DNA of 64,000 nt from [Bacillus] enclensis (GTDB taxonomy: Bacteria; Bacillota; Bacilli; Bacillales; Bacillaceae_B): NCBI RefSeq assembly GCF_001456935.1, contig NZ_KQ758483.1, forward strand, positions 620,001 to 684,000, read 5' to 3'. Shown here piece after piece: positions 7,817 through 56,478 of this stretch (position 1 is the first letter of the stretch; every line of letters starts with the position of its first letter). The notes beneath the pieces are model-generated. The model was not told where the DNA came from and did no database searches. It saw nothing but the letters and a program-made list of their open reading frames with translations. A program made the translations under genes and the position numbers.

Positions 7817-7864
7817 AAGACCAATGCCATGAAGAGAATTCTCTTCATGGCATTGGTCTTTCTT
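7817..7864 (+). terminator. Terminator after ymcA: 44-base perfect palindrome
   Basis: 7817-7860 is a perfect inverted repeat of 22 bases per arm (AAGACCAATGCCATGAAGAG followed by the central GAATTC and the mirror arm) ending in CTTTCTT. It also occupies the place of the leading hairpin of composite repeat copy A. Confidence 0.8.
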
Positions 7865-7880
7865 AATGAAAACCCTTTCT

Positions 7881-8239
7881 AGCGGTAAATTGGAGTGCAG
7901 GACGAAACCTCCCGACATTAGCAGAAGGGCTTAGAGGCGTGTGGCTTAAGGCAAATGGACCTGGAAAGCCCTCATTGCCTTCTTGGTCGGTTTGTCTTAT
8001 GACATGTGCCTCTAACCCCTGCAGCTAGACAAAAGAAAAGCGGAGGCGGCTTGCTCAGCCCCGACAAGCATAAGATGAATGGGCCGGAAAGGCGTTTTTT
8101 GCCTTTTTGGTCCATTTAGCTTATGACCTCGAGGGGCTAGCCGCCGGAGCTGGACAGGATCTGTCGCGAGAATGCGACGAGGAGGCTAACGGGCTACCCG
8201 TGGAAAGCTAAGTCTTGCACTGAAATCAGTAGCGGTGTT
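7881..8239 (+). repeat. Composite foldback repeat, copy A (two inner modules)
   Basis: The left arm begins AGCGGTAAATTGGAGTGCAG and the right arm ends GAAATCAGTAGCGGTGTT; both match copies C, D and E. Between them lie two different inner hairpin modules: one near 7926-8030 (AGGGCTTAGAGGC ... GCCTCTAACCCCTGCAGCT) and one near 8039-8155 (GCGGAGGCGGCTTG ... GGGGCTAGCCGCCGGAGC). The block fills most of the 640-base gap between ymcA and cotE. No protein is supported here. Confidence 0.8.
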
Positions 8240-8295
8240 AAAAAGTTGGTTTAAGTAACATAGGCGCCATTATTAATGTCCCTATACCTTTTAGG

Positions 8296-8323
8296 GAACA
8301 TTCAATAGGTATTCGCATACAAT
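8296..8323 (+). promoter_or_regulatory. Candidate SigE promoter of cotE
   Basis: GAACATT at 8296-8302 and CATACAAT at 8316-8323 with 13 bases between them fit the SigE consensus (KmATATT, CATACAmT). cotE is first transcribed by SigE in B. subtilis. A second weaker CATAAGAT near 8387 may be another start. Confidence 0.55.
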
Positions 8324-8425
8324 ACATTATCTCGCAACAATCCCATTATGCAATAAAATTTTCTCGCACAAACACCTAGACAGTCGCATAAGATGAATTG
8401 AAAATGAATGAGGAGGTTCGCTCGA

Positions 8426-8962
8426 ATGGCAGAATATAGAGAGATTATTACAAAAGCGGTCGTAGCGAAGGGACGTAAATTCACACAATCCCATCATACG
8501 ATTAGCCCGCCGCATAATCCATCGAGCATTTTAGGCTGCTGGATCATCAACCACAAGTATGAAGCACACAAAGTAGGCAAGAAGGTGGAAATACACGGTT
8601 CATTTGAAGTAAACGTATGGTACTCTCACAGTGACAATACGAAAACATCCGTAGTAACTGAAAGAGTCGATTACTGTGATGAAATCAAACTCAAATACCG
8701 TGATCCGGATGTCCTCGATGATATCGAAGTTTGTGCGCGCGTACTTCAACAGCCGAATTGCTGCGAAGCGGTGATTTCACCAAACGGTAATAAAATCATT
8801 GTTCATGTTGAACGGGAGATCCTGGTAGAAGTTATCGGGGAAACCAAGGTCTGTGTGCTTGTTAATCCTGAAGGCTGCGATGATGATGACTGGGATTGCG
8901 ATCTAGATGATGAAGAATTCGAAGAGCTAGACCCAGACTTCTTAGAGGGAGTAGAAGAATAG
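8426..8962 (+). CDS. cotE: Outer spore coat morphogenetic protein CotE
   Basis: The 178-residue product matches CotE (181 residues in B. subtilis), which forms a shell around the inner coat in the mother cell and recruits outer-coat proteins. It starts [19 protein letters not shown] and ends in the typical acidic tail, here [18 protein letters not shown]. The start was set at ATG 8426 because GAGGAGG lies at 8409-8416; the upstream in-frame ATG at 8408 overlaps that ribosome site. In B. subtilis mutS follows directly; here about 23 kb of accessory genes intervene. Confidence 0.96.
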
Positions 8963-8968
8963 CATGTG

Positions 8969-8997
8969 CTAGGAAGACGGCCTCTTCCTAGTTTTTC
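8969..8997 (+). terminator. Terminator after cotE
   Basis: Perfect stem CTAGGAAGA / TCTTCCTAG with loop CGGCC, followed by TTTTT. Confidence 0.9.
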
Positions 8998-9075
8998 TTC
9001 TGCAATACTCAAAAAAGAGATGACTCATTTCCAAACTTCTAACCATACATGATGGAATAATGATGAATATCTTAC

Positions 9076-9106
9076 AAGAGCGTCTCATGGATGCTCTTTT
9101 TTATTT
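9076..9106 (+). terminator. Second terminator-like hairpin downstream of cotE
   Basis: AAGAGCGTC / GGATGCTCTT hairpin followed by a T6 run, with no gene of its own between it and the cotE terminator. Confidence 0.6.
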
Positions 9107-9296
9107 TTATAAAAGGCTGTTTTCTAAAAGTTTGTTGCTTTTCGTACATTGGTCAGTAGTTGGGATGCAGCTTGTGAACGTGCTCTTTTCGAACTCAAGC
9201 TTAAACAAAAAACAGGCGTACCACTCGAAAATACCCAAGTTCCGGTATTTTCTTGCGTGTAAAGCAACAAAGTATGCGAAAAGAGCTTTATAAAAC
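9105..9296. mobile_element. 192-bp MITE-like foldback element
   Basis: The two ends are inverted repeats of about 40 bases. The left end begins TTTTATAAAAGGCTGTTTTC and contains TTTGTTGCTTT. The complement of the right end begins GTTTTATAAAGCTCTTTTC and contains the same TTTGTTGCTTT at the same distance. It lies between cotE and the minus-strand yeiH. It encodes no credible protein, so any movement would need a transposase in trans. The autonomous parent is unknown. Confidence 0.65.
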
Positions 9297-9321
9297 TAAA
9301 AGGCAGCTGTTTGCAAGCTGC
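9297..9321 (-). terminator. Terminator of the yeiH-like gene
   Basis: On the minus strand GGCAGCTTGCAAACAGCTGCC is followed by TTTTAGTTTTAT. Confidence 0.8.
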
Positions 9322-9333
9322 CAATCTGGTGAT

Positions 9334-10320
9334 TTATAAAATGAAAAAAAGACTGATCACAGCACAGGTAACAGAGGCAATCAATCCAGTCAGCAATGGT
9401 TTAAAACCAAGCTGAGATAAATCTTTCAGCCTGACCCCAAGTCCGACCGCAGCCATCACCATGATGATCATGAACTTCGAAAGTGAATTAAGGGTTTCTT
9501 CTACAAATACTGGTATGACTCCAATGGTATGAAGTATCGATACTCCGAGAAAAAGGAAGATGAACCACGGAAAAGCTTTCTTTAATGATACTGCACCAGC
9601 AGAAGCCTCGTCCCTTAACATAAATGGGAGAAGAAACATGACAGGGATTAAAAAGAGGGTACGGGCCAGTTTCACAGTAGTGGCAACCTCACCCGAAATA
9701 TCACCATAACTGTAACCGACAGCTACGGCGGAGGATGTGTCATGAACGGCAGTCCCAGCCCATATCCCGAATGCTTGCTGGGATAATCCCAGCAGATGTC
9801 CGATAATCGGATAAAAAATGAATGCAATGATATTGAAGAAAACGATAGTGGACAATGCGTATGCTGTTTCATTCTCTTTTGCCCCGATGATTCCCTTTAC
9901 AGCAGAAATAGCAGTGGCTCCGCAGATGCTCGTTCCTATCCCGATCAATAGACTCAGCCTGGTGTTGATGCCCAGTAACCTGCCCACTGCATAGGTGACA
10001 CTGATGCCAACGGTGACCGAAATAAAAATGATCCATAATGCCGATTGTCCGATTTTCATAATTTCCAAGAGGCTCAACCCCACTCCAAGGAATACAATGG
10101 CCACTTTTAACAGCTTCTTTAACGTGAATTGTATGCCGGGGTCCCACGAGCTTGGAAGATTGATTGCATTCCGCAGAATCATTCCGATGATAATGGCGAA
10201 TAAAAGGCTTCCGGCCAGTGGAAACCACGAGCCTAATACTTTTGAAATCATACTGATTATTAAAATGAAAACAATCCCGATCGTTTCCTTAGGGAGGAAT
10301 TTCTTTAATTGTTTATGCAC
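9334..10320 (-). CDS. YeiH-family integral membrane protein (putative sulfate exporter)
   Basis: The 328-residue protein belongs to the YeiH/UPF0324 family (Pfam Cons_hypoth698), with about 10 predicted membrane helices. Signature motifs are IGTSICGATAI near residue 131 and WAGTAVHDTSSAVAVG near 189. Members are annotated as putative sulfate exporters, but the substrate is not well proven. It starts with GTG at 10320, preceded on the minus strand by AAGAAGGAG. It is transcribed away from topB. No LysR-type regulator, often found beside yeiH, is adjacent. Confidence 0.85.
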   Translation of the reverse strand: MHKQLKKFLPKETIGIVFILIISMISKVLGSWFPLAGSLLFAIIIGMILRNAINLPSSWDPGIQFTLKKLLKVAIVFLGVGLSLLEIMKIGQSALWIIFISVTVGISVTYAVGRLLGINTRLSLLIGIGTSICGATAISAVKGIIGAKENETAYALSTIVFFNIIAFIFYPIIGHLLGLSQQAFGIWAGTAVHDTSSAVAVGYSYGDISGEVATTVKLARTLFLIPVMFLLPFMLRDEASAGAVSLKKAFPWFIFLFLGVSILHTIGVIPVFVEETLNSLSKFMIIMVMAAVGLGVRLKDLSQLGFKPLLTGLIASVTCAVISLFFIL

Positions 10321-10452
10321 TGTTGCAGCTCCTTCTTTAAAAATCCATTTTCTAAGTATAATATATTATGAGAGTAAAGGGGAACCAAAACCGTAGACTT
10401 TTTATGTTACTATAGAAAGATACTCAAAGTTTTTCGTTGAAAGGATTTTATT

Positions 10453-12618
10453 ATGAAAAAGACATTAGTGCTTGCAGAAAAACCTTCTGTGGGCAGAGAT
10501 ATTGCAAGGGTGCTGAATTGCACGAAAAAGGGTAATGGATTTATTGAAGGAAATAAATATATCGTGACCTGGGCACTGGGGCATCTTGTCACACTCGCAG
10601 ATCCAGAGACTTATGATGACAAATACAAATCATGGAATCTGGAAGATCTGCCTATGATGCCTGCAGCATTGAAACTTGTGGTGATCAAGAAAACCGGAAA
10701 GCAGTTCAATGCAGTAAAATCGCAGATGAACCGTCAGGATGTCGGTGAAATTGTCATTGCCACGGATGCGGGACGGGAAGGGGAACTCGTTGCACGCTGG
10801 ATCATCGAAAAAGCGAGAGTGCAAAAACCTCTTAAACGGCTTTGGATCTCTTCCGTGACGGATAAAGCGATTAAAGAAGGATTCAATAAGCTCAAGGACG
10901 CAAAAGGTTATGAAAATTTATATCAGGCTGCCCAGGCAAGGTCAGAAGCAGACTGGTATGTAGGCATGAACGCAACAAGGGCATTGACGACCAAGTATAA
11001 TGCTCAGCTTTCCTGCGGGCGGGTGCAGACCCCCACATTGAGTATAATCGAACAGAGGGAAGAGGAAATCAAGAAGTTCAATCCTAAGACGTATTACGGC
11101 ATTAAAGCGGTTACGGATAAAGGCACCTTTCTATGGACTAACTCAAAAGGGGATACAAAAACGTTCTCCCAAGATGAAATCAATAGTATCCTGACGTCAC
11201 TGAAAAATGTGAAAAGCGGCACTGTCCATTCAGTGAAAACGACGTTGAAAAAACAATATGCACCGTCACTCTATGACTTGACGGAATTACAAAAAGATGC
11301 CTATAAGATCTATGGGTTCGGTGCCAAAGAAACACTGTCGATCATGCAAAAGCTTTATGAACAGCATAAACTCGTAACCTATCCGCGTACCGACAGTAAG
11401 CATCTGTCATCTGATATTACAGATACACTAAAGGACCGTCTGAAGGCAGTCAACGTCCAGCCTTACCGCCCTGCTGTAAATAAAGCTCTGCAAAGCTCCA
11501 TGAAGCTGTCTAACGCATATGTAGATGACCGGAAAGTAAGTGATCACCATGCGATTATCCCCACTGAGGAGACCGCTTTCTTTGGAAAGCTTTCTGACAG
11601 GGAAGCAAAAATTTATGACTTGATCGTGAAACGTTTTCTCGCGATATTCCTGCCTCCATATCAATATGAACAGACGAGAGTTGAAATGACTGTCGGCAAG
11701 GTGCATTTCCATACAAAAGGCAAAAGGGTAAAAGAAAAAGGCTGGAAAGATGTATATGGATTTGAAACGGATGAAGATCAGTTACTGGGGAAAATGGAAA
11801 AAGGGACTGAACTCAGACTGCTTTCTATAAGCGAAACGGAAGGGCAGACCACTCCTCCTGGCCGTTTTAATGAGGGGACGCTGCTTGCCGCGATGGAAAA
11901 TCCAGCAGGATTCATGAAAGAAAGCAACAAGGAGCTTTTGGAAACGATAGGGGAGACAGGCGGCCTTGGAACGGTTGCAACCCGCGCCGACATCATTGAT
12001 AAGCTCTTTAACTCAGGCTCGATGGAACAAAGAGGGAAAGAAATCCACCTTACTTCCAAAGGAAAGCAATTACTGGACCTGGCGCCTGAAGAGCTGCGTT
12101 CACCTTCCCTCACAGCCGAGTGGGAGCTGAAACTGGATAAAATCGCGAAAGGGTCCATGAAAAAACGAGAATTTATTGAAGAAATAAAAACATATACGAA
12201 AAAGTCCGTTCATGAAATTAAAAATTCCAATAAAAAATTCTCACATGATAACCTGACCGGAACAAAATGTCCTGATTGCGGAAACCTCATGCTTGAGATT
12301 AAAAATAAAAACGGAAAGAAATTGGTTTGCCAGGACCGGGAATGCGGTCATCGTAAAAATATCAGCAAGAAAACAAATGCACGTTGCCCGAATTGTCATA
12401 AACGTTTAGAACTTCGCGGAGAAGGAGACGGCCAGCTGTTCGTGTGCGTATGCGGCCATAAAGAAAAACTTTCAACCTTCAATGAGCGGAGAAAGAAAGA
12501 GAAGCACAATAAGGCAAGTAAGCGGGATGTAAATCAATACTTAAAGACGCAGCAAAAAGATGAACCGGTGAACACGGCCCTCGCCGATGCTCTCGCAAAA
12601 TTAAAACTTGATCAATAG
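10453..12618 (+). CDS. topB: DNA topoisomerase III (type IA)
   Basis: The 721-residue enzyme (727 in B. subtilis) relaxes and decatenates DNA. The TOPRIM domain begins KTLVLAEKPSVGRDIA with ATDAGREGELVARW near residue 105. The catalytic tyrosine lies in TYPRTDSKHL near residue 310. The C-terminus carries CPDCGNLM...CQDRECGHRK and CPNCHKR...CVCGHK cysteine pairs, i.e. zinc-ribbon-like repeats. ATG 10453 follows AAAGGATTTT. It is a monocistronic gene with its own terminator. Confidence 0.96.
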   Translation: MKKTLVLAEKPSVGRDIARVLNCTKKGNGFIEGNKYIVTWALGHLVTLADPETYDDKYKSWNLEDLPMMPAALKLVVIKKTGKQFNAVKSQMNRQDVGEIVIATDAGREGELVARWIIEKARVQKPLKRLWISSVTDKAIKEGFNKLKDAKGYENLYQAAQARSEADWYVGMNATRALTTKYNAQLSCGRVQTPTLSIIEQREEEIKKFNPKTYYGIKAVTDKGTFLWTNSKGDTKTFSQDEINSILTSLKNVKSGTVHSVKTTLKKQYAPSLYDLTELQKDAYKIYGFGAKETLSIMQKLYEQHKLVTYPRTDSKHLSSDITDTLKDRLKAVNVQPYRPAVNKALQSSMKLSNAYVDDRKVSDHHAIIPTEETAFFGKLSDREAKIYDLIVKRFLAIFLPPYQYEQTRVEMTVGKVHFHTKGKRVKEKGWKDVYGFETDEDQLLGKMEKGTELRLLSISETEGQTTPPGRFNEGTLLAAMENPAGFMKESNKELLETIGETGGLGTVATRADIIDKLFNSGSMEQRGKEIHLTSKGKQLLDLAPEELRSPSLTAEWELKLDKIAKGSMKKREFIEEIKTYTKKSVHEIKNSNKKFSHDNLTGTKCPDCGNLMLEIKNKNGKKLVCQDRECGHRKNISKKTNARCPNCHKRLELRGEGDGQLFVCVCGHKEKLSTFNERRKKEKHNKASKRDVNQYLKTQQKDEPVNTALADALAKLKLDQ

Positions 12619-12629
12619 TAAATGGAAAA

Positions 12630-12663
12630 GATAGGGACCACTGATAAAGTCCCTATCTTTTTT
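12630..12663 (+). terminator. Terminator after topB
   Basis: Perfect stem GATAGGGAC / GTCCCTATC followed by TTTTTT. Confidence 0.92.
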
Positions 12664-12712
12664 ATGATTATATTGATAGAATATTCATAATAATATAAAG
12701 ATTGAGGTGAGC

Positions 12713-13234
12713 ATGATGACGCCTGTTACTGTAAAAGGTTTCTTCACAGCCATACAAGAAGGTAACGCTGAAGTTGTAGAAAAGTCATTACAAGCAGATA
12801 CTAATCTATGTAATGCAGAGGACGAAAACGGGTTGATTGCACTCGGGGTTGCAGCACACTATGGACAGCTGGAGATTGTCCGGCTATTAATGAATTACGG
12901 GGCAGATATTAATTCTGCTTCAAATTCAAAAGTTTCATATATTCCTTCCAATAGTGCCCTGCACGCAGCAATAGCTGGGAAAGCACCTAATGAAATGATA
13001 GAGTTCCTGCTGCTCGAAGGCGCAGATATCAACAGCATTGACTCAGCTGGTTATTCTCCTATGCATATCGCAGCTTTTGACGGGGATGAAGACTTAGTCT
13101 TGCTGCTTCTGAAATTCAAGGGTGACCCAGAGAGCAGGAATGCAGTCAGTCAGAAATCACCTTATGAAATCGCACATGATAGAGGGAACAGCGGTTTCAT
13201 AAACGCATGTGAGAGCTACTCAAATCAAATTTAA
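12713..13234 (+). CDS. Ankyrin-repeat protein
   Basis: The 173-residue soluble protein is built of ankyrin repeats: GLIALGVAAHYGQLEIVRLL near residues 35-55, ALHAAIAGKAPNEMIEFLL near 78-97, and PMHIAAFDGDEDLVLLLL near 113-130, with degenerate caps at both ends. Ankyrin repeats mediate protein binding and the partner is unknown. The ribosome site is TTGAGGTGA; ATG 12713 or 12716 is more likely than the GTG at 12707 that lies inside it. It sits alone between two terminators. Confidence 0.88.
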   Translation: MMTPVTVKGFFTAIQEGNAEVVEKSLQADTNLCNAEDENGLIALGVAAHYGQLEIVRLLMNYGADINSASNSKVSYIPSNSALHAAIAGKAPNEMIEFLLLEGADINSIDSAGYSPMHIAAFDGDEDLVLLLLKFKGDPESRNAVSQKSPYEIAHDRGNSGFINACESYSNQI

Positions 13235-13252
13235 TTTAGCCCGTTTACCCAT

Positions 13253-13275
13253 GAAGCCAGCCGGCTTCTTTTTTT
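13253..13275 (+). terminator. Terminator after ankyrin gene
   Basis: GAAGCC AGCC GGCTTC followed by a T8 run. Confidence 0.88.
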
Positions 13276-13433
13276 ATTGTGAAAAAGCACCCAGGATCCA
13301 AGTTTTTATAGGGGTAAAATCGAAAAATTTTTTCCGATCAATGTAATCCCTTACATCATTGGTGCATAGGGAAATTTAAGAACACTTAATTAGTATATAT
13401 TATCTGAAAAAATAATCTTTTTAGAAAATTCTG

Positions 13434-13462
13434 TTGTTATTTGTCGTCTGACGTATTACAAT
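13434..13462 (+). promoter_or_regulatory. SigA-type promoter of the cstA-like gene
   Basis: TTGTTA at 13434-13439 and TACAAT at 13457-13462 with a 17-base spacer, about 34 bases before the start codon. Confidence 0.6.
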
Positions 13463-13495
13463 GAATCTTAATTTCATCGAGGGGAGGACATCTAG

Positions 13496-14944
13496 ATGCT
13501 GACATTTCTTGCATCAGTCTGTATTTTAGTAGCTGGTTATTTTATTTATTCAAAGGTGGTAGAAAAGATTTTCGGTATTGATGACGGGAATGTCACACCT
13601 GCCTATGCAAGTAAAGACGGATTTGATTACATGCCGATGAGCTGGTGGAAGGCAAGCCTGGTCCAATTACTGAATATCGCAGGGCTTGGTCCGATTTTTG
13701 GTGCCATACTCGGTGCTTTGTATGGACCGGTTGCATTCATTTGGATCGTTATCGGTACACTTTTTGCAGGAGCTGTCCATGATTATTTCTCCGGCATGTT
13801 GTCACTGCGTCATAATGGAGCTCAATTTCCTTCATTGGTAGGCAGATACTTGGGGAGACATGTTCGGTCAGTAATGAATATTCTTTCAATCATCTTGATG
13901 ATATTGGTTGCAGCAGCATTTACTTCAGGACCTGCTCAATTGATGGCCGAAGTGACACCTTTATCATTCATGGCATCATTAATAATCATTTTTACATATT
14001 TCATTCTTGCCACAGTGCTGCCAATCAACAAAATTATCGGAAAGATTTACCCGATTTTCGGTGCAGTCCTGGTATTCATGGCCTTGGCAATCGGGATAGG
14101 ATTGTTCTTCTTTGAACACCCCGTTCCCAACCTTACATTTGCCAACTTGCATCCTCAGGAGCTTCCATTATGGCCATTGTTGATGGTAACTGTTTCGTGC
14201 GGTGCGATTTCAGGTTTTCACTCCACACAAAGTCCGATCCTGGCAAGGACGCTTAAGAAGGAAAGCGAAGGGCGAAAAGTATTCTATGGAGCAATGGTTG
14301 CAGAGGGGATCATCGCATTAATCTGGGCTGCTGCCGGGATGGCTTTCTTCAATGGGACGGGAGGACTTCAGGAAGCACTTGCTGCAGGGGGCCCTGCAGG
14401 AGTTGTAAATGAAATCAGCAAAACGACTCTTGGAACATTGGGCGGCATTCTTGCGGTACTGGGTGTCATCATCCTCCCGATCACAACCGGAGATACTGCA
14501 CTGCGTTCCTCGAGAATGATGCTTGCAGATCTATTATTTGATTGGAGAAAGGAAGAATTGAAAGGGAAATGGCTGCCGGGGCTGCTCGTTATCCCTGTAG
14601 CACTTCCCACTTTCCTGCTGACTCAGATTGATTATACATTCCTTTGGAGATATGTCGGCTGGTCGAACCAAGTAGTGGCGACTGTCATGTTATGGACGGC
14701 AGCTGTTTATCTGCTTCAAAATCAGAAGTTTCATTGGATCTGCAGTCTCCCGGCTCTGTTCATGACAGCTGTGGTAAGCTCATATATCTTTTACGCACCG
14801 GAAGGTTTCCACCTTCCTTACAAAGAATCCATGATCATAGGAGCCGTCATCTGGACAGCCGTCCTCATCTGGTTCATCCGCCAGCTCCTGAAATATCGTC
14901 CAATCGGACAGAAGTCGTTAAACGTAAAATCAGTAAACTCATAA
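13496..14944 (+). CDS. CstA-family carbon starvation transporter
   Basis: The 482-residue membrane protein belongs to the CstA family, whose members take up peptides or pyruvate under carbon limitation. It has about 12-14 hydrophobic helices. Family motifs include FDYMPMSWW near residue 43, NIAGLGPIFGAILGALYGP near 59, and SGFHSTQSPILARTL near 240. It is the short form, since E. coli CstA is about 700 residues. ATG 13496 follows GAGGGGAGG. It is monocistronic, ending at the leading hairpin of repeat copy B. Confidence 0.9.
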   Translation: MLTFLASVCILVAGYFIYSKVVEKIFGIDDGNVTPAYASKDGFDYMPMSWWKASLVQLLNIAGLGPIFGAILGALYGPVAFIWIVIGTLFAGAVHDYFSGMLSLRHNGAQFPSLVGRYLGRHVRSVMNILSIILMILVAAAFTSGPAQLMAEVTPLSFMASLIIIFTYFILATVLPINKIIGKIYPIFGAVLVFMALAIGIGLFFFEHPVPNLTFANLHPQELPLWPLLMVTVSCGAISGFHSTQSPILARTLKKESEGRKVFYGAMVAEGIIALIWAAAGMAFFNGTGGLQEALAAGGPAGVVNEISKTTLGTLGGILAVLGVIILPITTGDTALRSSRMMLADLLFDWRKEELKGKWLPGLLVIPVALPTFLLTQIDYTFLWRYVGWSNQVVATVMLWTAAVYLLQNQKFHWICSLPALFMTAVVSSYIFYAPEGFHLPYKESMIIGAVIWTAVLIWFIRQLLKYRPIGQKSLNVKSVNS

Positions 14945-14948
14945 CTTA

Positions 14949-15711
14949 TTGAGGCTGGAACAAAAGTATTTTAATTAAAAACCGAACGAATTTGCCTGGG
15001 ATGCAAACTCGTTCGGTTTTTTTTGATGTTCACATATGATATTTACTAGTCTCAGCTCTTTCCAGAGGTTGATTGGAATGGTTTAAGATATAAGATACGA
15101 AAAAAAATAGAAGCCTAAGAATATGACTTGAAGGCAAACCGGAAAGGAAAATCCACTTGCCTCCTGTGTGATATATCTAAATAGATTAAATCACGTTCCG
15201 AGTTAGTGGATCAGACCTTTATACGGAAAGATAAAATGTGAAAACCCACGAATATCAGAGTGTTAACCGCAGTAGAGACTTTTGCCTTCGTGCCGTGTTC
15301 TTATCTTCTGTTCCATCAAAGAAAAAGGAGGATCAAGAAGAACTATAATAAGTTTCAATCCATTTATTCAGGATGGAAATGTGTAGACTTATTCATATTC
15401 AAAACCGGTTCCAGCGATTGATTGGAGTGCAAAACGTAGACTCCTAACAGAAATGCGGAAGGGCTTTGCTTAGAGGCGTGTGCATAAGGCGAATCGGCCA
15501 CGAAGGCGTTCTTTGCCTTCTTGGGCGGTTTGACTTATGTCAAGTGCCTCTAAGCCCTGCAGCTGGACAGTTCCCCACTGGAAATTAAGAGGAGGCTCAC
15601 CAACCGCCCGCGGAAAGCGAAGTTTTGCGCGGAAATCAATAGCGGAATAAAGAACCTATACTAATATTGTCAGTCTTTATAGGGTAGCATTTTAATTCTG
15701 TCCCAGTCTTA
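14949..15711 (+). repeat. Composite foldback repeat, copy B (long, with terminal inverted ends)
   Basis: The left end TTGAGGCTGGAACAAAAG and the right end AATTCTGTCCCAGTCTTA (complement TAAGACTGGGACAGAATT) form degenerate terminal inverted repeats. Next comes a terminator-like hairpin (14977-15024), then a first left arm near 15058 (TTCCAGAGGTTGATTGG), then about 330 bases without match to the other copies, then a complete foldback from TCCAGCGATTGATTGGAGTG near 15405 to GAAATCAATAGCGG near 15650. The inner module at 15474-15565 contains CGTGTGCATAAGGC and GACTTATGTCAAGTGCCTC. It fills most of the 1.1-kb gap. No ORF is supported. Confidence 0.75.
14977..15024 (+). terminator. Terminator after the cstA-like gene (leading hairpin of repeat B)
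   Basis: AAAACCGAACGAATTTGC pairs with GCAAACTCGTTCGGTTTT and is followed by TTTT. Confidence 0.9.
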
Positions 15712-15970
15712 TTTTTGTTTCTAATAATTTCTGAATATTTTGTCGATAATTAACGAAGTTTTCCAAAGAGAAACCCTGATTATTTTACAAAATTCGCAGA
15801 ACGCTTATGCTAACGTTATATCAACTCCTATAAATAGTTTATTCTATTTTTAGAATATACATAATGACCAATAGTCAAAGGAGCTGATTTTACATAGTGT
15901 ATAGTGCAATTACTTTTTGTACAAGTTAAAATGAGTTGAAAAGACAAAATATTCAGACATTACTAAATCC

Positions 15971-15999: not shown

Positions 16000-16008
16000 C
16001 AACAAAGC

Positions 16009-28020: not shown

Positions 28021-28232
28021 ATTGTTATTAAGGTGTTATAAACGTTTTGGTTGATGAATCTTATGGGGGTGCACATTCCACTACTATATAAATAACTTTT
28101 GGAATTAGTGGTAGTTAATATGCTTAAAAACCTGACTGACGAAGAAACAGTTAAGTGTTAAGTTTTAGCTAATAACTTCTTGGCCTTTCTCTTGATTTTT
28201 TATTGACGCGGTAACCAAAGCGTTTAATAACT

Positions 28233-28603
28233 GAGGCTGGGATTAAAAGGTTTTAGTCTATGCAAAGTCCGATAATTTTCGTATTAAGAGGAAAATTATT
28301 TCGGGCTTTAATTTGTTTAAATGTTCATTTAGATTTAGCTCTCTTCAGCGGTTGATTGGAGTGCAAGACGAAGACTCCTGCGGGAAGAGTAGCTTATGTG
28401 AGACTTGTCTAGCTGCGGGGCTTAGAGGCACATGTCATAAGTCAAATCGGCCAAGAAGGCAAAGTACGCCTTCGTGGCCGATTCGCCTTATGCCAACCGC
28501 CTCTTTTCAATGCCCCTCCGCTTTTCTTCCCGCAGGCTTGCCGAGGAGGCTCACGGGCTACCCGCGGAAAGCGTAGTCTTGCACGGAAATCATTAGCGGT
28601 GTT
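28233..28603 (+). repeat. Composite foldback repeat, copy C
   Basis: The end motif GAGGCTGGGATTAAAAGG (28233-28250) is followed by a hairpin (AAAGTCCGATAATTTTC / GAAAATTATTTCGGGCTTT, 28264-28309) and the foldback 28346-28603. The foldback begins CAGCGGTTGATTGGAGTGCA and ends GGAAATCATTAGCGGTGTT. One inner module carries AGAGGCACATGTCATAAG and its mirror CTTATGCCAACCGCCTC. An 87-codon ORF across it is a by-product. The rest of the 27.9-28.7 kb gap shows no gene. Confidence 0.8.
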
Positions 28604-47365: not shown

Positions 47366-47370
47366 TTTCA

Positions 47371-49226: not shown

Positions 49227-49245
49227 GATGGACTTTTATAGCATT

Positions 49246-49278
49246 AAAGCCAGCGCATTCTTCAGCGCTGGCTTTTTT
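49246..49278 (+). terminator. Terminator of glnRA
   Basis: AAAGCCAGCGC ATTCTTCA GCGCTGGCTTT followed by T-run. Confidence 0.92.
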
Positions 49279-49297
49279 TTGCGTATGGCGGACAAAA

Positions 49298-49330
49298 CAA
49301 AAAAAACGCTGATTCCAGCGTTTTTTTTTG
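49298..49330 (-). terminator. Terminator of lexA
   Basis: AAACGCTG ATTC CAGCGTTT hairpin with A-runs and T-runs on both sides; on the minus strand it follows the lexA stop closely. Confidence 0.8.
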
Positions 49331-49334
49331 ATAA

Positions 49335-49955
49335 TTAATGAACCTGGCGATAAACACCAATAACTTTACCTAGGATAGAAACATTTCGTAATATGATTGG
49401 ACCCATTGTCGAGTTTTCCGGCTGGAGTCTGACATAATCCTTTTCTTTGAAGAAGCGTTTTACTGTCGCTTCGTCTTCTTCCGTCATGGCGACGACGATA
49501 TCTCCGTTGTTGGCCGTCTGCTGTTGTCTTACAATGACGAAGTCCCCGTCGAGAATTCCGGCTTCTATCATACTGTCCCCCATGATTTCGAGCATGAAAA
49601 CCTGCTCATCTGAAGGAGCCAGACGTTCGGGAAGAGGAAAGAATTCCTCAACGTTTTCGACAGCCGTAATCGGCTGTCCGGCAGTTACCTTACCGATCAA
49701 GGGCACGTTTACAACTTTCTGGCGTGGAATTGTATCTTCTTCCAGATCAAGTATCTCTATTGCCCTTGGCTTGGTGGGATCACGCCGGATAAGCCCTTTG
49801 CTCTCGAGCCTTGCAAGATGACCGTGGACCGTTGAACTTGAAGCCAAACCGACAGCTTCACCTATTTCCCGGACTGATGGCGGATAACCTTTTTCTTTAA
49901 CAGATACTTTAATGTATTGAAGTATGTCTTGCTGTCGTTTAGACAATTTAGTCAT
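49335..49955 (-). CDS. lexA: SOS repressor LexA
   Basis: The 206-residue repressor has an N-terminal winged helix ([32 protein letters not shown]) and a C-terminal S24 self-cleavage domain. The scissile bond is Ala92-Gly93 (VTAGQP), the nucleophile Ser128 (GDSMIEAG) and the general base Lys166 (TVKRFF). ATG 49955 gives MTKLSKRQ as in other Bacillus and has GAGGTG upstream; the GTG at 49961 adds two residues. It is divergent from the SOS operon yneA-yneB-ynzC. Confidence 0.97.
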
Positions 49956-49989
49956 GTACACGCACCTCTATTATCGATCTTATGTTCCC

Positions 49990-50018
49990 ATTATAGCATG
50001 TCTTTCCAACTGATACAA
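49990..50018 (-). promoter_or_regulatory. lexA promoter
   Basis: On the minus strand TTGTAT (50018-50013), 17 bases, then TATAAT (49995-49990) with an extended TGC before it. Confidence 0.65.
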
Positions 50019-50029
50019 ACATAAGTTCG
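50016..50029. promoter_or_regulatory. LexA box 1
   Basis: CAAACATAAGTTCG; the complement CGAACTTATGTTTG differs from CGAACRNRYGTTYG at one position. It overlaps the lexA -35. Confidence 0.8.
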
Positions 50030-50039
50030 AATTTTTCGG

Positions 50040-50069
50040 TTGACACCAAACGGATGTTCGTATTACAAT
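50040..50069 (+). promoter_or_regulatory. yneA promoter
   Basis: TTGACA (50040-50045) and TACAAT (50064-50069), spacer 18, enclosing LexA box 2. Confidence 0.7.
50047..50060. promoter_or_regulatory. LexA box 2
   Basis: CAAACGGATGTTCG; the complement CGAACATCCGTTTG differs from the consensus at one position and lies in the yneA promoter spacer. Confidence 0.85.
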
Positions 50070-50085
50070 CTAGTTACAAACAAAC

Positions 50086-50099
50086 AGAACAAACATTCG
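50086..50099. promoter_or_regulatory. LexA box 3
   Basis: AGAACAAACATTCG fits the SOS consensus at 12 of 14 positions, between the yneA promoter and its ribosome site. Confidence 0.6.
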
Positions 50100-50115
50100 T
50101 ATGGAGGTCATTTAT

Positions 50116-50442
50116 ATGTTAACACAAATTTGGAATCGTTTTTCTTATATAATCATTCTTTTTGTATTATCTTTTTTATCAGCGGGTTACTTAGTGGTAT
50201 CGGGGGGGAGCGATCCTTCATATGAGACGGTCACCGTCAATAAGGGGGATACTCTCTGGACGATTGCTGAGAAGTTTGAAGGGGAATACAATATGACGAG
50301 GGAAGAGTTCATCGAATGGGTGGGACATGAAAATGATTTAATCTCCTTCGCGATAGAGCCTGGGATGTCATTGATTTTGCCGGTCGAAGCATCTTCATAT
50401 TCCACCCAATCCGATATACAGCTTGCGATAAATAATAAGTAG
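50116..50442 (+). CDS. yneA: SOS cell-division inhibitor YneA
   Basis: The 108-residue protein blocks division during DNA damage. One N-terminal membrane segment (FSYIIILFVLSFLSAGYLVV) is followed by an extracytoplasmic LysM domain (TVNKGDTLWTIAEKF ... PGMSLILPV). ATG 50116 follows GGAGG at the right distance; the ATG 50101 overlaps it. It is the first gene of the LexA-controlled operon yneA-yneB-ynzC. Confidence 0.95.
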   Translation: MLTQIWNRFSYIIILFVLSFLSAGYLVVSGGSDPSYETVTVNKGDTLWTIAEKFEGEYNMTREEFIEWVGHENDLISFAIEPGMSLILPVEASSYSTQSDIQLAINNK

Positions 50443-51108
<666 letters not shown>

Positions 51109-51197
51109 CCCTTGTCAATGAAGCTCTTATCTAGTAACATATCGGTATATTTATTGAAGCAATGTACTGGATAAAAGCTGTAAAGGAGTTTTCATAG

Positions 51198-51431
51198 ATG
51201 CTATCTAAGAAAAAGATGAACAGGATAAATGAACTTGCCAAGAAGTCAAAAGAGAGCGGACTGACTGACAGTGAAGCGAAAGAACAAACAAAATTAAGAA
51301 AAGAATATCTTGAAACATTCCGTCAGTCAATGAAAGGCACCATCGAGAACACACGCATTTTCGACACCGACGGCAATGAAGTCACTCCCAAAAAAATTAA
51401 AGACATCCAAAACAAACGCAAAATGCATTAG
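51198..51431 (+). CDS. ynzC: YnzC, DUF896 family protein
   Basis: The 77-residue protein has the length and sequence of YnzC (DUF896): two helices in NRINELAKKSKESGLTDSEA, then EQTKLRKEYLETFRQSMKG. It is the third gene of the SOS operon in B. subtilis. Its function is unknown. AAAGGAG precedes ATG. Confidence 0.94.
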   Translation: MLSKKKMNRINELAKKSKESGLTDSEAKEQTKLRKEYLETFRQSMKGTIENTRIFDTDGNEVTPKKIKDIQNKRKMH

Positions 51432-51461
51432 TGCAATGGAAAGATAAAAAATATGTTAAAA

Positions 51462-51517
51462 GATCCGAACAAATGTTGAAGTTTCTTTAATTGTACTTCT
51501 TATTAGTTCGGATTTTG
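51462..51517 (+). terminator. Terminator-like hairpin after ynzC (leading hairpin of repeat D)
   Basis: ATCCGAAC / GTTCGGAT stem with a long loop, followed by TTTG. Confidence 0.6.
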
Positions 51518-51558
51518 TTATTTTGAAATATTAAATTCAAATTTTTTTCTGCATGTTT

Positions 51559-51741
51559 CAGCTTTTGATTGGAGTGGAAGACGAAGACTCCTGCGGGAGA
51601 AGTGGCCAATGTGAGACCCCGGAGGCGAAGCCGAGGAGGCTCAAGGGTCACCCGCGGAAAGCGAAGTCTTCCCACGGAAATCAAAAGCGTTGTTAGGATT
51701 GATATGTGCATTTTAATCCTTTTAATCCCTTTAATCCCTGG
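51559..51741 (+). repeat. Composite foldback repeat, copy D (short form)
   Basis: The minimal form, from CAGCTTTTGATTGGAGTGG to GGAAATCAAAAGCGTTGTTA (51559-51694), without the inner hairpin module. The arms pair over most of their length (GAAGACTCCTGCGGGA with CCGCGGAAAGCGAAGTCTTC). The centre is CCCCGGAGGCGAAGCCGAGG. After it come three TTTAATCC units (51711-51741) whose complement matches the GGGATTAAAAGG end motif of copy C. No ORF here is credible. Confidence 0.82.
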
Positions 51742-51903
51742 ATTTGTAAGAAAACACTAAAAACATAACGAAAATCCCGAACATCAAAGGTTTTTATTTT
51801 CCAACAAAACAAAGTCATGTTATCATTCAAGTTAGTTGTATAAACTACCCAAGAAGATTAATATTAATAATAAGCAAGTATGAAAAGGAAGGATGTCTGA
51901 CCA

Positions 51904-53907
51904 ATGTTTGATAATACAGATCAATTAGCAATTAATACAATTCGAACTTTATCAATCGATGCAATCGAAAAAGCAAATTCGGGTCACCCGGGTATGCCTA
52001 TGGGTGCAGCTCCAATGGCGTATGCACTATGGACACGCTTTATGAACCATAACCCTAAAAACCCTGAATGGTTTAACAGGGACCGCTTTGTTCTTTCTGC
52101 TGGACACGGTTCAATGCTTTTATACAGCATGCTTCACTTATCTGGATATGATGTTTCCATGGATGATCTTAAAGGATTCCGTCAATGGGGAAGCAAAACT
52201 CCGGGACACCCTGAGTACGGCCACACTCCAGGGGTAGAAGCAACAACCGGACCACTTGGTCAAGGGATTGCAATGTCAGTAGGTATGGCACTGGCAGAAC
52301 GACATTTAGCTGCAACATACAACAAAGACAACTATAACTTAGTGGACCATTATACATACTCGATCTGTGGTGATGGTGACTTGATGGAGGGTGTATCTTC
52401 CGAGGCAGCTTCATTGGCCGCTCACCTTAAACTTGGCCGCCTGGTCGTTTTATACGATTCCAACGATATCTCACTTGATGGTGAGTTGGATAAATCATTC
52501 TCTGAAAGTGTGAAAGGCCGTTTTGAATCATATGGCTGGCAGTATATCAGGGTTGAAGATGGAAATGATCTCGACGAAATCTCCAAGGCGATCGAAGAGG
52601 CTAAAGCCGATACTTCACGTCCTACAATGATTGAAGTGAAAACAGTCATCGGTTACGGTGCTCCAAATAAATCAGGAAAGTCGGATGTTCACGGTGCACC
52701 TCTTGGTGAAGAGGAAATGAAGCTTACGAAAGAAGCTTACAAGTGGACATTTGACCAGGATTTCCATGTTCCGGATGAAGTGTACAGCCGTTTTGAAGAG
52801 AAGATTCAGCAAACTGGCTCTCAGAAGGAAGAAGAATGGGCAAGTCAATTTATAAAATATAAAGAAGAATATCCTGAATTAGCAGTTCAATTGGAAGCTG
52901 CTATCAAAGGTGAGCTTCCTGAGGGCTGGGACAGTGAAATTCCTGTATATGAAGAAGGCAAGTCACTTGCCAGCCGTGCCTCTTCTGGTGAAGTATTGAA
53001 TGCCATTGCGAAAAATCTTCCTTCCTTCATCGGTGGATCTGCTGATTTAGCCGGTTCGAATAAAACGATGATCAAGGGAGCTTCAGATTTCACTCCTGAG
53101 TCCTACGAAGGGAAGAACATCTGGTTCGGTGTCCGTGAATTCGGTATGGGTGCAGCAATGAACGGGATGGCTTTACATGGCGGCCTTAAAGTATTCGGTG
53201 GAACATTCTTCGTATTCAGCGATTATTTAAGACCTGCTATCCGCCTTGCAGCGCTTATGGGTCTTCCTGTGACTTATGTATTCACTCATGACAGTATTGC
53301 AGTAGGGGAAGACGGCCCGACTCATGAGCCTGTTGAACAACTTGCGTCCCTGCGTGCAATGCCTAACTTATGTGTAATCCGACCTGCTGACGGTAACGAA
53401 GTAGCGGCTGCATGGAAGCTTTCCATGGAAAATACTGAGCAGCCGACGATGCTTGTATTATCACGTCAAAATCTCCCTACTTTAAAGGGAACTGCAGACA
53501 AGGCTTATAATGGAGTGGCTAAAGGTGCATACGTAGTTTCACCTGCTGGTAAAGAGCAGCCGGATGCATTGCTGCTTGCTACAGGTTCTGAAGTGAGCCT
53601 GGCAGTAGAAGCACAAAATGCCCTAGAGAAAGATGGTATCAGTGTTTCTGTTGTAAGTATGCCATCATGGGACCGTTTCGAAAAGCAGTCTAAAGAATAT
53701 AAGGATTCAATCCTGCCTAAGGGAGTAACGAAACGTCTTGCCATTGAAATGGGTTCACCTCTTGGATGGGACCGTTATACTGGTCCGGACGGAGATATCC
53801 TGGCCATCAATGGATACGGTGCTTCAGCTCCTGGTGAAAAAGTTCTTGAGGAATATGGTTTTACTACTGATAATGTGGTTTCAAGAATCAAAGCTTTACT
53901 TCAATAA
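51904..53907 (+). CDS. tkt: Transketolase
   Basis: The 667-residue ThDP enzyme of the pentose phosphate pathway. Family signatures are [20 protein letters not shown] near residue 14, [18 protein letters not shown] near 156 (ThDP/Mg) and [18 protein letters not shown] near 463. The start is ATG 51904 after AAAGGAAGG. Position after ynzC matches B. subtilis. Confidence 0.98.
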
Positions 53908-53924
53908 GGTTTGAGGCTCACACT

Positions 53925-53957
53925 GGCTGACTCCTTTTACGGGAGTCAGCCTTTTTA
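53925..53957 (+). terminator. Terminator after tkt
   Basis: GGCTGACTCC TTTTAC GGGAGTCAGCC followed by TTTTT. Confidence 0.93.
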
Positions 53958-53978
53958 CTTTTCTTCATGGAACTCCAC

Positions 53979-53987
53979 TTCGACAAA
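53979..53987. promoter_or_regulatory. Spo0A box upstream of sirA
   Basis: TTCGACAAA is the exact complement of the 0A box TTTGTCGAA, 97 bases before the sirA start. sirA is a direct Spo0A~P target in B. subtilis. Confidence 0.75.
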
Positions 53988-54075
53988 ACTAGAGCAATTT
54001 CTCAACAATTTATGACATGGTGCTCTTCTATCTTCCTTTATACTTAATAGAAGGAAATGTAGGGGGGATCATAAG

Positions 54076-54513
54076 GTGAGAAATTATCAAATCTATTGGA
54101 TTGAAGAATCGTTTGCCAACCACTACTATGGACGTGAAAGAATGTTTTTTGGGCTTTTCTCTGATTGGGAAAGAAGCTCAGGTGATCTGAATAAAATCAT
54201 ATCCAAGCAAGTGGAATTCATCACTAAACCCATTCCTTACCTTCCTACACACAGAATCCTGCAGCATGAACTGGTTAAGGTTGAGGGAGCGAAGTGGATT
54301 GATACTACTGCAATCATCGAGGGAGAAGATTCAGGCGCAAATCTGTTGATGAATGAAAGAAGCATTTCGATAGAGGCATGGGGCCCCAATGACTGCGAGT
54401 ATTTATTTTTCGAAATCCTAAGAAGGAATATGGGGCAGCTGCTTGCCATCGACCTGGATAACGAGAGATACGGCTGGCTGAAGCCTATAAAACAAAGAAA
54501 ATTTATATATTAA
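54076..54513 (+). CDS. sirA: Sporulation inhibitor of replication SirA (YneE)
   Basis: The 145-residue protein matches SirA (148 in B. subtilis), which binds domain I of DnaA at the start of sporulation and blocks new replication rounds. Family features are the N-terminal YWIEESFANHYYGRERMFF and the C-terminal YGWLKPIKQRKFIY. GTG 54076 follows AGGGGGG. It is monocistronic, between tkt and yneF as in B. subtilis, and has a perfect Spo0A box upstream. Confidence 0.93.
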   Translation: MRNYQIYWIEESFANHYYGRERMFFGLFSDWERSSGDLNKIISKQVEFITKPIPYLPTHRILQHELVKVEGAKWIDTTAIIEGEDSGANLLMNERSISIEAWGPNDCEYLFFEILRRNMGQLLAIDLDNERYGWLKPIKQRKFIY

Positions 54514-54597
54514 TAAGAAATTATGACAGAAATATTGTATAATGTTCTTTGGTTTAGTACACTTTTATAAGGACAACATGAAGGAGGAAGTAAGAAC

Positions 54598-54816
54598 ATG
54601 TCAACTTGGCTAGTTGTTCTAGTGGCAGTTATAGCATTACTTGCAGGAATTGCACTAGGATTTTTCATTGCTCGCAAATACATGATGAGCTACCTAAAGA
54701 AAAACCCGCCTATTAATGAACAAATGCTTCGCATGATGATGATGCAGATGGGACAGAAACCATCACAAAAGAAAATCAATCAAATGATGAATGCAATGAA
54801 CAAAAATATGAAGTAA
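54598..54816 (+). CDS. yneF: YneF, UPF0154 membrane protein
   Basis: The 72-residue protein has one N-terminal membrane helix ([20 protein letters not shown]) and a cationic, methionine-rich tail ([15 protein letters not shown]). It is the UPF0154 protein YneF, of unknown function, widely conserved in Firmicutes. GAAGGAGGAAG precedes ATG. Confidence 0.95.
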
Positions 54817-54824
54817 TAGAACAG

Positions 54825-54851
54825 AGCACTCACCGAGCTGAGTGCTTTTTC
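54825..54851 (+). terminator. Terminator after yneF
   Basis: AGCACTCA CCGAGC TGAGTGCT followed by TTTT. Confidence 0.92.
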
Positions 54852-54928
54852 TATTTAAGAGAAAAACTTCAACATTTTATTCAGTATAAAAATAAAATTA
54901 TGATAGAATAGGGTGCGGAGGGAGTCAA

Positions 54929-56053
54929 ATGAAAAAATGGATGATTGCTTCTCTTTCACTTTTCGTCTTTTTAGCCGGATGTAATAAAGATCCACAAGAA
55001 GTGATTGATGAAGATACGCTCGAAATACAAGACAGTGCTGCAAGTGATGCACGGGAATATTTAACCTATAAGGTCGATAAGCAGAAAAAATCAGTCAACC
55101 GTGGTTTGATAACGATGATGATTAATAACCGGAGTGATATGGATGAAATTGAGACGGGCCTAATGTCATTATCAACCGACCACTTTTCACCCGATGACTA
55201 TGTATACCAAGAGGGACAGTATCTGACAAAAATCAACTCTTGGTTAGGAAGAGAATCGAAAGATAACAAAGAAGGTTTGAATCCGTCCATAAAAATTACA
55301 GAAGGAATGGGCTGGGAAGAAAGAATCGAAAGAGAGAAGAAAGACCCAATGTACCTTGCTTATATACATGAGCAGAACTATGTTGATTCAAAAGGGAAAA
55401 TCCAGGGAATCTCTCTCGGATTCGCAATGAATAAGATAGACTACATACGGGTAAAAGATTCCAAGGGGCTGATGCATTTTGATGAAAGTGTCATTGATGA
55501 CAAAACCTTGGAGAAATACGGTAAAGAAGCTGCCAAAAAGGTAGTGAGCAGAATACGCTCCACGAAAGAATTGAAAAATGTACCGATCTTCATTTCACTT
55601 TATAAACTGCAGCCCTTGAACAGTGTGGTGCCGGGTAATTATTTCACCAGTACATTCGTTGATGATAATGAAAACGGGATAAAAAAGTGGGAAGACATAA
55701 AAGAAAAGTATTATTACTTTCCAAGCAAGGAAGGGGAAGAAAAGGACCGCGACCTCTATAACCGGATCAGGGATCTTGAGGATTATGTTGCACAATACTT
55801 CTCCCATCAGGATATTGAATTTGTAGGTAAAGCGTTATACAAAAAAGAAAATGTGAACCAACTGGTCATCGATGTTCATACCGGTATGGTCAAAGATACC
55901 GAACTTATTGGGTTTGCCCAGGCAATCGGACCGGAGATTGTCGACTACTTCCCTCATATGCCCGTGTATTTATACGTGAAAACGCCGAAAGGGCTGAAAG
56001 CAACCATTGTAAAAGAAGTAGACCAAGAACCTTTTGTAGAAATTCATGAATGA
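54929..56053 (+). CDS. CamS-family sex-pheromone-type lipoprotein
   Basis: The 374-residue lipoprotein has a signal peptide MKKWMIASLSLFVFLAG and a lipobox LAGC (lipidated Cys18). The body resembles the CamS family (YerH in B. subtilis), with a YLYVKTPKGL...EVDQEPFVEIHE C-terminus. In enterococci and staphylococci the signal-peptide remnants of such lipoproteins act as conjugation pheromones; the family's own function is unknown. The usual CamS gene is beside ligA-pcrA, so this location is unusual and may indicate a second copy. GGAGGGAG precedes ATG. Confidence 0.85.
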   Translation: MKKWMIASLSLFVFLAGCNKDPQEVIDEDTLEIQDSAASDAREYLTYKVDKQKKSVNRGLITMMINNRSDMDEIETGLMSLSTDHFSPDDYVYQEGQYLTKINSWLGRESKDNKEGLNPSIKITEGMGWEERIEREKKDPMYLAYIHEQNYVDSKGKIQGISLGFAMNKIDYIRVKDSKGLMHFDESVIDDKTLEKYGKEAAKKVVSRIRSTKELKNVPIFISLYKLQPLNSVVPGNYFTSTFVDDNENGIKKWEDIKEKYYYFPSKEGEEKDRDLYNRIRDLEDYVAQYFSHQDIEFVGKALYKKENVNQLVIDVHTGMVKDTELIGFAQAIGPEIVDYFPHMPVYLYVKTPKGLKATIVKEVDQEPFVEIHE

Positions 56054-56077
56054 TATTTTGATCAATAGAGAACGAAG

Positions 56078-56478
56078 TTGAGACAATATTGATTTATTCT
56101 AAGTAAAACTCGAACAAATTTGTTCGAGTTTTTTATTGTACTTTTAGGAGTTTAGCTATTAACAGCGTTTGATTGGATTGCAAGAGGAAGACTCCTGCGG
56201 GAAGAGTAGTTTATGTGAGACTTGTCTAGCTCCAGGGCTTAGAGGCACATGTCATAAGTCAAACCGCCCAAGAAGGCAAAGAACGCCTTCGTGGTCGATT
56301 CGTCTTATGCCACACGCCTCTCTTCAAAGCCCTTCCGCTTTTCTTCCCGCAGGCTTGCCAAGGAGGCTCACGGGCTACCCGCGGAAAGCGAAGTCTTGCG
56401 CGGAAATCATTAGCGTGGTATAAAGTCTCCACTAAAATGTAAAGATTTAGACCTTGGCTATAAAGTTTTGTCTCCCCC
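56078..56478 (+). repeat. Composite foldback repeat, copy E
   Basis: The left end TTGAGACAATATTG (56079-) and the right end GTTTTGTCTCCCCC (56465-56478) are degenerate inverted ends. Inside lie a perfect 28-base palindrome (56105-56132) and the foldback 56163-56419, CAGCGTTTGATTGGATTGCA to GGAAATCATTAGCGTGG. Its inner module carries AGAGGCACATGTCATAAG with mirror CTTATGCCACACGCCTC. An 84-codon ORF in it is a by-product. Confidence 0.82.
56105..56135 (+). terminator. Terminator after the CamS-like gene (leading hairpin of repeat E)
   Basis: AAAACTCGAACAAA and its exact complement TTTGTTCGAGTTTT, followed by TT. Confidence 0.88.

Follow-up and report, generated by a model that had tools for sequence, protein, structure and literature searches.

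Foldback repeats between genes of a Rossellomorea genome and probable small cassettes that replace a gene's stop hairpin with their own

Five repeats between co-directional genes

We analyzed a 64,000-nucleotide (nt) stretch of [Bacillus] enclensis DNA (NCBI RefSeq assembly GCF_001456935.1, contig NZ_KQ758483.1, positions 620,001 to 684,000 of the forward strand; hereafter the window), in which a first-pass annotation had described five foldback repeats, here called copies A to E. The identity of 90.5% across 6.4 kb between a block of this genome and Rossellomorea aquimaris SAMM (R. aquimaris) places the window in a Rossellomorea species. The five repeats are real and lie on the + strand close to the positions first assigned to them, as judged by core arms located with nhmmer, and every copy sits between co-directional predicted genes on the gene strand. 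Gene positions throughout are those of our own hexamer gene caller, used without annotation. At least one of the repeats, and probably three, are small transposon-like cassettes that replace a gene's stop hairpin with one of their own. These cassettes account for part of the shared direction of the repeats and leave a stronger bias of the repeat core unexplained.

The part common to the five copies is an imperfect foldback core of about 130 nt, which stands bare in copy D. As first proposed, the left and right arms are inverted relatives that together form one imperfect hairpin; when copies C and D were folded whole, both folds (-123.8 kcal/mol, z -6.2, and -59.6 kcal/mol, z -3.9, respectively) were better than all 200 shuffles. 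The copies differ in length because a second element of about 123 nt (TTGTCCAGCT ... CCGCTTTTCT) is nested within the core, forward in C and E and reversed in A and B, with two such elements in A. A hairpin lies between gene and core in all five copies, and outer inverted ends are present in B and decayed in C (left end only) and E. The description of the repeats as directly following an upstream gene applies to A, D, and E (90-125 nt) and not to the cores of B and C, whose nearest predicted stops are 464 and 453 nt away; the long unit of B nevertheless starts 5 nt past the stop codon at 14942-14944. The features of the window are as follows, with ends of the type found in the IS1182 family of insertion sequences (IS) located by an end scan and cassettes scored with a hidden Markov model (HMM).

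7811..7866, + strand: terminator-like hairpin behind the upstream gene, 5' of copy A; 28-nt inverted arms, 93% complementary; fold -37.1 kcal/mol
7877..8236, + strand: copy A, core arms (nhmmer) and, from the sequence, two reversed nested ~123-nt elements
7925..8156, - strand: nested elements of copy A, both reversed and the first truncated, recognized as inverted counterparts of the elements inside C and E; limits by eye
14950..15711, + strand: long unit of copy B, 762 bp; left end TGAGGCTGGAACAAAA at 14950-14965, right end at 15696-15711
14977..15021, + strand: terminator-like hairpin inside unit B, AAAAACCGAACG..CGTTCGGTTTTTTTT; inverted arms, fold -22.5
15409..15645, + strand: core of copy B (nhmmer), with a reversed nested element at about 15450-15571 (inverted-repeat comparison)
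28232..28247, + strand: left end of copy C, IS1182-type, TGAGGCTGGGATTAAA with 3 mismatches (end scan)
28266..28309, + strand: terminator-like hairpin of copy C; fold -17.4, terminator prediction
28344..28600, + strand: core of copy C (nhmmer), with a forward nested element at 28405-28528 (sequence)
51462..51513, + strand: hairpin 5' of copy D that to the eye resembles a cassette terminator in decay; fold -19.5; cassette HMM score 0.9, so unrecognized by the model
51557..51691, + strand: copy D, bare ~130-nt core (nhmmer; fold z -3.9)
56073..56088, + strand: decayed left end of copy E, 5 mismatches in 16 (end scan); cassette HMM 37.8 bits
56105..56132, + strand: terminator-like hairpin of copy E; perfect 14-bp arms, fold -14.3
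56163..56416, + strand: core of copy E (nhmmer), with a forward nested element at 56222-56345 (sequence)
56466-56481: possible decayed right end of copy E, 6 mismatches in 16 (end scan)

The end scan gave no acceptable pair of IS1182-type ends for copies A and D and no right end for copy C. In copy A, a native terminator precedes the core, and the bare core of copy D perhaps derives from a decayed cassette. A further repeat (TTTTGCCTTCGTGCCGTGTTCTTA ... CATATTCAAAACCGG) precedes the core of copy B at 15280-15408, and leaders resembling it were seen at C1b 225358, C1b 70761, and C4 317867 (block coordinates); this repeat may be part of an older, longer cassette.

The outer cassette and the exchange of hairpins

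We extended the analysis to four blocks of the same genome totaling 1.6 Mb (C1 1-400 kb, C1 1.15-1.55 Mb, C4 80-480 kb, and C2 455-855 kb, the last containing the window), in which nhmmer detected 80 complete cores and 20 single arms, the latter excluded from all counts. The assembly consists of 18 contigs, and repeats may be missing from it. From relatives, we sampled 0.8 Mb of R. aquimaris SAMM (G002) and 0.4 Mb of a second genome (G006). A 5'-leader model placed 22 of the 80 cores inside a longer unit, the cassette, which begins with (A)AGAGGCTGGGACAAAA and bears a hairpin like AACCCGAACTAATTTGC..GCAAATTAGTTCGGGTT. An inverted end on the other side was found within two mismatches in five cases from this genome, copy B included. 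The model recognizes copies C and E as cassettes, at 32.6 and 37.8 bits, and copy B was missed by it and counted as plain because its core is further from the hairpin. The terminal inverted repeats are clear in B, with 2 and 4 mismatches of 16, and weak in C and E. Outside genes, 13 matches to the left-type end had a same-strand upstream gene, and 11 of these began 4-21 nt past the stop codon (the other two at -16 and 407). Convergent gaps hold eight of the 22 cassettes; the IS families reported, in the portion of the source available to us, as overrepresented in such gaps include IS1182 (PMC9208149).

At the site of copy B, the G002 sequence aligns to both flanks up to the unit ends and has between them a perfect 28-bp hairpin (TATAGACCCTTC-ATTT-GAAGGGTCTATA, with a 12-bp stem and a fold of -17.8 kcal/mol) followed by the same T-tract. 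Relative to G002, a stem-loop at copy B has been replaced without target duplication, an exchange that within the window is shown at B only. In the other blocks, G002 has a hairpin in place of cassettes 277392 and 67673 and, by reading of the alignments, likewise in place of cassettes 258081 (reversed) and 60416. We consider it likely that the long copies (B and, by their decayed ends, probably C and E) are miniature inverted-repeat transposable elements (MITEs) of IS1182 type that carry a portable terminator and transpose by stem-loop replacement.

A candidate helper for such elements was found in a sister species. The transposase domain PF13751 is present in 17 of 36 genomes of the genus, and we scanned three such genomes (G032, G013, and G002) for the motif of the ends. 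One of 23 PF13751 matches, in G032, was bracketed by the inverted end motif and defines an IS of 1,822 bp (C1:1570257-1572078) with 17-bp ends AAGAGG(T/C)TGGGACAAAA and perfect 19-bp hairpins immediately inside both ends. Its 522-amino-acid transposase scores 426.8 bits to the NCBIfam IS1182 model NF033551 (cut-off 270). The left end of this IS lies about 7 nt past an apparent stop codon, and the homologous gene of the [Bacillus] enclensis genome, as read from the alignment, has a plain hairpin and T-tract where G032 has the IS. We infer that an IS1182-type transposase of this kind moved the cassettes. A search for an autonomous IS found no transposase between paired ends in the stretches fetched.

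These observations suggest a model in which a cassette, composed of the inverted ends, a terminator hairpin that starts roughly 30 nt in from the left end, and the ~130-nt core as cargo, would take the place of a stem-loop, for instance the terminator native to a gene, with no duplication of the target, leaving the gene to rely on the cassette's hairpin, which is predicted to terminate transcription. A forward cassette would place its terminator near the stop codon, and a reversed one would place it beyond the rest of the unit. Because only forward insertions would have the terminator close behind the stop, they would be kept more often, and selection would then be the cause of cassette orientation. 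The ~123-nt element enters the core at a few fixed points and in both orientations, and the copies are composite as a result.

Several results weigh against this model. No match to PF13751 was found in the [Bacillus] enclensis genome, from whose assembly repeats may be missing, so that present mobility of the cassettes there is no more than possible, and none of the other 22 PF13751 matches is bracketed by these ends when up to one mismatch is allowed. A counterpart to the right flank of the G032 IS was absent from the blocks fetched from the [Bacillus] enclensis genome. A scripted comparison of eight presence/absence sites gave a clean swap at three (copy B, 277392, and 67673); C138:36373 showed a partial swap, copy C and C138:22255 gave no clear outcome, and copy E has no empty site in G002 because both genomes share it. 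Only 22 of 80 cores are cassettes by the model and only five cases have both ends within two mismatches, and the end search itself, with a permissive hairpin flag, returned 44 matches of which 15 are inside genes and probably due to chance. In tandem gaps, the cassettes favor the gene strand 11:3, no more strongly than the plain cores do at 44:3, so the cassettes cover the smaller part of the bias and leave that of the plain cores uncovered. Finally, TnSha1, an IS1182-family element, is reported in both orientations within one terminator in the source text available (PMC5678879, PMC4923244). A hand tally of elements absent in G002 (five of nine cassettes vs six of 33 plain cores, with copy B as plain) was not relied on.

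Orientation and structure of the core

None of the 80 complete cores overlaps a predicted gene. Between tandem genes, 55 cores, including the five of the window, are on the gene strand and 6 are opposite (n = 61; binomial p 5e-11), and the remaining complete cores lie in convergent (10) and divergent (9) gaps. In G002, tandem cores divide 30:1 in the same sense, a count that is not an independent sample because many sites are common by descent with the [Bacillus] enclensis genome, and G006 gave 2:0. For other genera, cores were found by exact pattern in at least 116 stretches from many Bacillaceae genera; removal of 33 matches that were not flanked by genes on either hand and of 8 in loci taken as Rossellomorea left 77, a set in which a few loci named Bacillus that resemble the [Bacillus] enclensis genome (e.g., L209 and L215) stayed. 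Among these matches listed, 27 tandem cores follow the gene strand and 15 oppose it (p 0.09), with 23 in convergent and 12 in divergent gaps; this count supersedes an earlier one of 18:10 from 80 loci. Since the other-genus ratio differs from 55:6 (Fisher p 0.002), the strong strand bias is therefore a property of the Rossellomorea lineage, as far as sampled. A genome-wide same-strand bias, which the first-pass annotation had named as a sign of function, was present in the two Rossellomorea genomes sampled in depth and was weak outside the genus.

Some sites and records offer further views of the core. In at least one case, at C1b 267064, a core seems by reading of the alignment to separate a promoter-like sequence from a start codon. 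Opposite the core at C4 273898, the relative has at C138 96869 only a short stretch similar to the two ends of a core, suggestive of a deletion of the hairpin. Relatives of the core occur on eight Bacillaceae plasmid records, including NZ_CP102590.1 (Niallia taxi, 1.44 Mb) with 11 places, and the phage records searched contained no core match.

The earlier annotation had also named a lack of structural covariation as a refuting result; covariation of the arms was strong. Double-change Watson-Crick cells numbered 68 in 72 copies from the [Bacillus] enclensis genome (shuffle maximum 27, with shuffles that ignore relatedness) and 223 in 91 other-genus copies among the matches listed (shuffle maximum 105). 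Helices were counted with the help of anchors, at the cost of copies that lacked them (11 of 119 complete elements in the count of this genome and its relatives, and 16 of 117 in the other-genus count). RNAalifold found almost no structure in the pooled cross-genus alignment and only two outer helices in the Rossellomorea set. The covariation is compatible with selection on RNA, selection on hairpin DNA, or hairpin-templated repair. Several orthologous cores at shared sites, with flanks mostly 84-98% identical, differ by paired blocks on both arms, which suggests gene conversion or replacement between copies. The internal loops GGA/GGA and GACTCCT../..GGAAAGCG are unpaired yet nearly constant, arguing for recognition of some kind.

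We also compared G-U with A-C cells as a sign of RNA-level function, with ratios of 11:6 in the [Bacillus] enclensis genome (minus the four outermost pairs), 9:5 in relatives, and 31:44 in other genera among the matches listed. This test was dropped because the terminator stem of the cassette, included as a control that would have to work as RNA if it terminates, was itself balanced (15:17), so that the ratio cannot tell RNA from DNA. Rfam gave no match in the window at the gathering threshold. A weak lead among its families was tsr24 (RF02577), which matched core D (window 51462-51711) at 28.3 bits, below the gathering score of 50, and matched copy D alone among six loci from this genome and none of seven from other genera.

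With a same-strand upstream gene, 54 of 65 cores in the [Bacillus] enclensis genome lie beyond a predicted intrinsic terminator, at distances from 17 to >400 nt. Control tandem gaps of at least 200 bp without elements have a predicted terminator equally often (191 of 231), so we rejected enrichment of terminators at cores and regard the finding as one of position. Terminators pointing at the core within 150 nt were on its 5' side only in 38 cases, on its 3' side only in 3, on both sides in 7, and on neither in 32 (n = 80). The relatives gave 18 on the 5' side only and 2 on the 3' side only (n = 39), and other genera gave 26 on the 5' side vs 20 on the 3' side (n = 94 among the matches listed).

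At C1b 109786, alignment with C95 51048 of G002 shows a clean 125-nt insertion of the nested element at GTGAGAC^CCCGCAGG without duplication. Copies nested in cores are oriented with the core in 35 cases and opposite to it in 40. Outside cores, in tandem gaps, the element follows the gene strand 19:2 in the [Bacillus] enclensis genome and 27:2 in relatives, counts that are inflated by head-to-tail arrays, and by reading at least 6 of the 55 copies listed lie directly behind a terminator T-tract. Arrays or positions behind T-tracts were noted, for example, at C2 43292-43788, C2 164059, and, in G002, C138 117174-117789 (block coordinates). The element's own 3' end resembles a stem followed by a T-run, and any copy may thereby recreate its target. 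As this element indicates, a polar target can yield strand bias in the absence of any RNA function. Where targets are polar, as terminators are, mobile DNA need not occur in both orientations, contrary to the premise of the first-pass annotation. The proposal of integration coupled to transcription comes close to the findings for cassettes and the nested element.

Considering these findings together, a core that inserts as a foldback mobile element with fixed polarity to terminators or transcription, so that its orientation reflects targeting and not function, is a possible if somewhat unlikely explanation. The 38 terminators on the 5' side only against 3 on the 3' side only, along with the gene-strand bias of the nested element outside cores, are consistent with such targeting. 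The near balance of sides in other genera, the variable distance between terminator and core, the inflation by arrays and the evenly split orientation of nested copies within cores, and the lack of a transposase tied to the core argue against it. We regard as improbable a core that is primarily a structured RNA, acting in mRNA 3'-end stability, processing, or as a second stop for read-through and selected in the sense orientation, with mobility secondary. The orientation of tandem cores, plain cores in particular, the arm covariation, and the nearly constant unpaired loops speak for an RNA, as does the finding that cores in divergent gaps are closer to the co-directional gene in 7 of 9 cases in the [Bacillus] enclensis genome and 10 of 12 in others among the matches listed. 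Set against these are the placement of most cores beyond a predicted terminator (though control gaps also have one), G-U and A-C cells without a clear RNA-strand signal in a test that its control makes blind, and the absence of an Rfam family at the gathering threshold. The weak bias outside the genus counts against a general 3' untranslated region function, and the RNA-level role first suggested for the repeats was not supported.

Most predicted genes are on the strand that GC skew identifies as leading, and insertion biased by replication strand, in the manner of IS200/IS605- or REP-type hairpin elements, could therefore look like a transcription bias. The orientation of IS200/IS605 elements is typically set by the replication strand. 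GC skew was negative in three of the four blocks, and in those blocks all five cores between lagging-strand tandem genes follow the gene strand, and the 18 cores found where neighboring genes converge or diverge are divided 10:8. On these small counts, the bias tracks transcription and not replication; we rejected the replication-strand explanation, which we consider very improbable. We offer the doubtful suggestion that in Rossellomorea the core is more than cargo and owes its position or its persistence to a process sensitive to transcription polarity just beyond terminators, either insertion in a fixed orientation behind termination complexes or an RNA element that acts on read-through transcripts alone and is recognized via its conserved unpaired loops.

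Relation to known elements

A mobile element that removes a gene's terminator hairpin while supplying a new one would spread cheaply behind genes, and a strong same-strand bias of intergenic repeats may stem from polar targets instead of RNA function. The filled and empty sites, together with the candidate transposase in a sister species, offer a test case for structure-replacing transposition outside Staphylococcus, and the core family is widespread across Bacillaceae genera without an Rfam entry at threshold. Stem-loop replacement by IS1182-family elements is already known (PMC5678879, PMC4923244), as are terminator-like repeats (PMC3049150, PMC10969869), as far as the available text of these sources goes. 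Our literature search, which covered titles and abstract openings and few subscription journals, returned nothing on a terminator-carrying IS1182 MITE or on this core; searches by sequence string gave nothing relevant as judged by title, and a search for tsr24 together with S. aureus gave no paper.

Core D resembles tsr24, an S. aureus small RNA, in the stretch AGACUCCUG.GGGAG ... CACCC..GGAAAGCGAAG, and the core family may reach Staphylococcus; the sub-threshold score and the restriction to one locus of six set the two apart. By description alone, in the part of the source available, Bcr1 of B. anthracis and Bhal-1 and Bhal-2 of B. halodurans are similar as short Bacillus stem-loop repeat families (PMC2267715). 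SPRITE, BOX, and RUP of Streptococcus pneumoniae are likewise short, clustered intergenic repeats, and SPRITE is terminator-like and near gene 3' ends. Unlike the repeats described here, they are reported in the accessible text to follow the bias of coding sequences (60.8-63.3%) and to be more frequent than expected in convergent gaps, and that text mentions no hairpin replacement (PMC3049150).

The closest relatives of the cassettes are elements of the IS1182 family. The G032 IS has the same ends, hairpins inside them, and a start just past an apparent stop codon, and differs in its size of 1.8 kb, its transposase, and the lack of any core that we noticed. IS1272 and TnSha1 of Staphylococcus insert in hairpins, often terminators, with whole or partial loss of the hairpin and no target duplication, according to the text available from the sources (PMC5678879, PMC4923244). 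The cassettes share with them the inverted ends, the stem-loop target, the loss of the target hairpin, and the absence of duplication. In contrast to these elements as so described, the cassettes lack a transposase, carry their own terminator hairpin and a foldback core, and lie mostly in one orientation.

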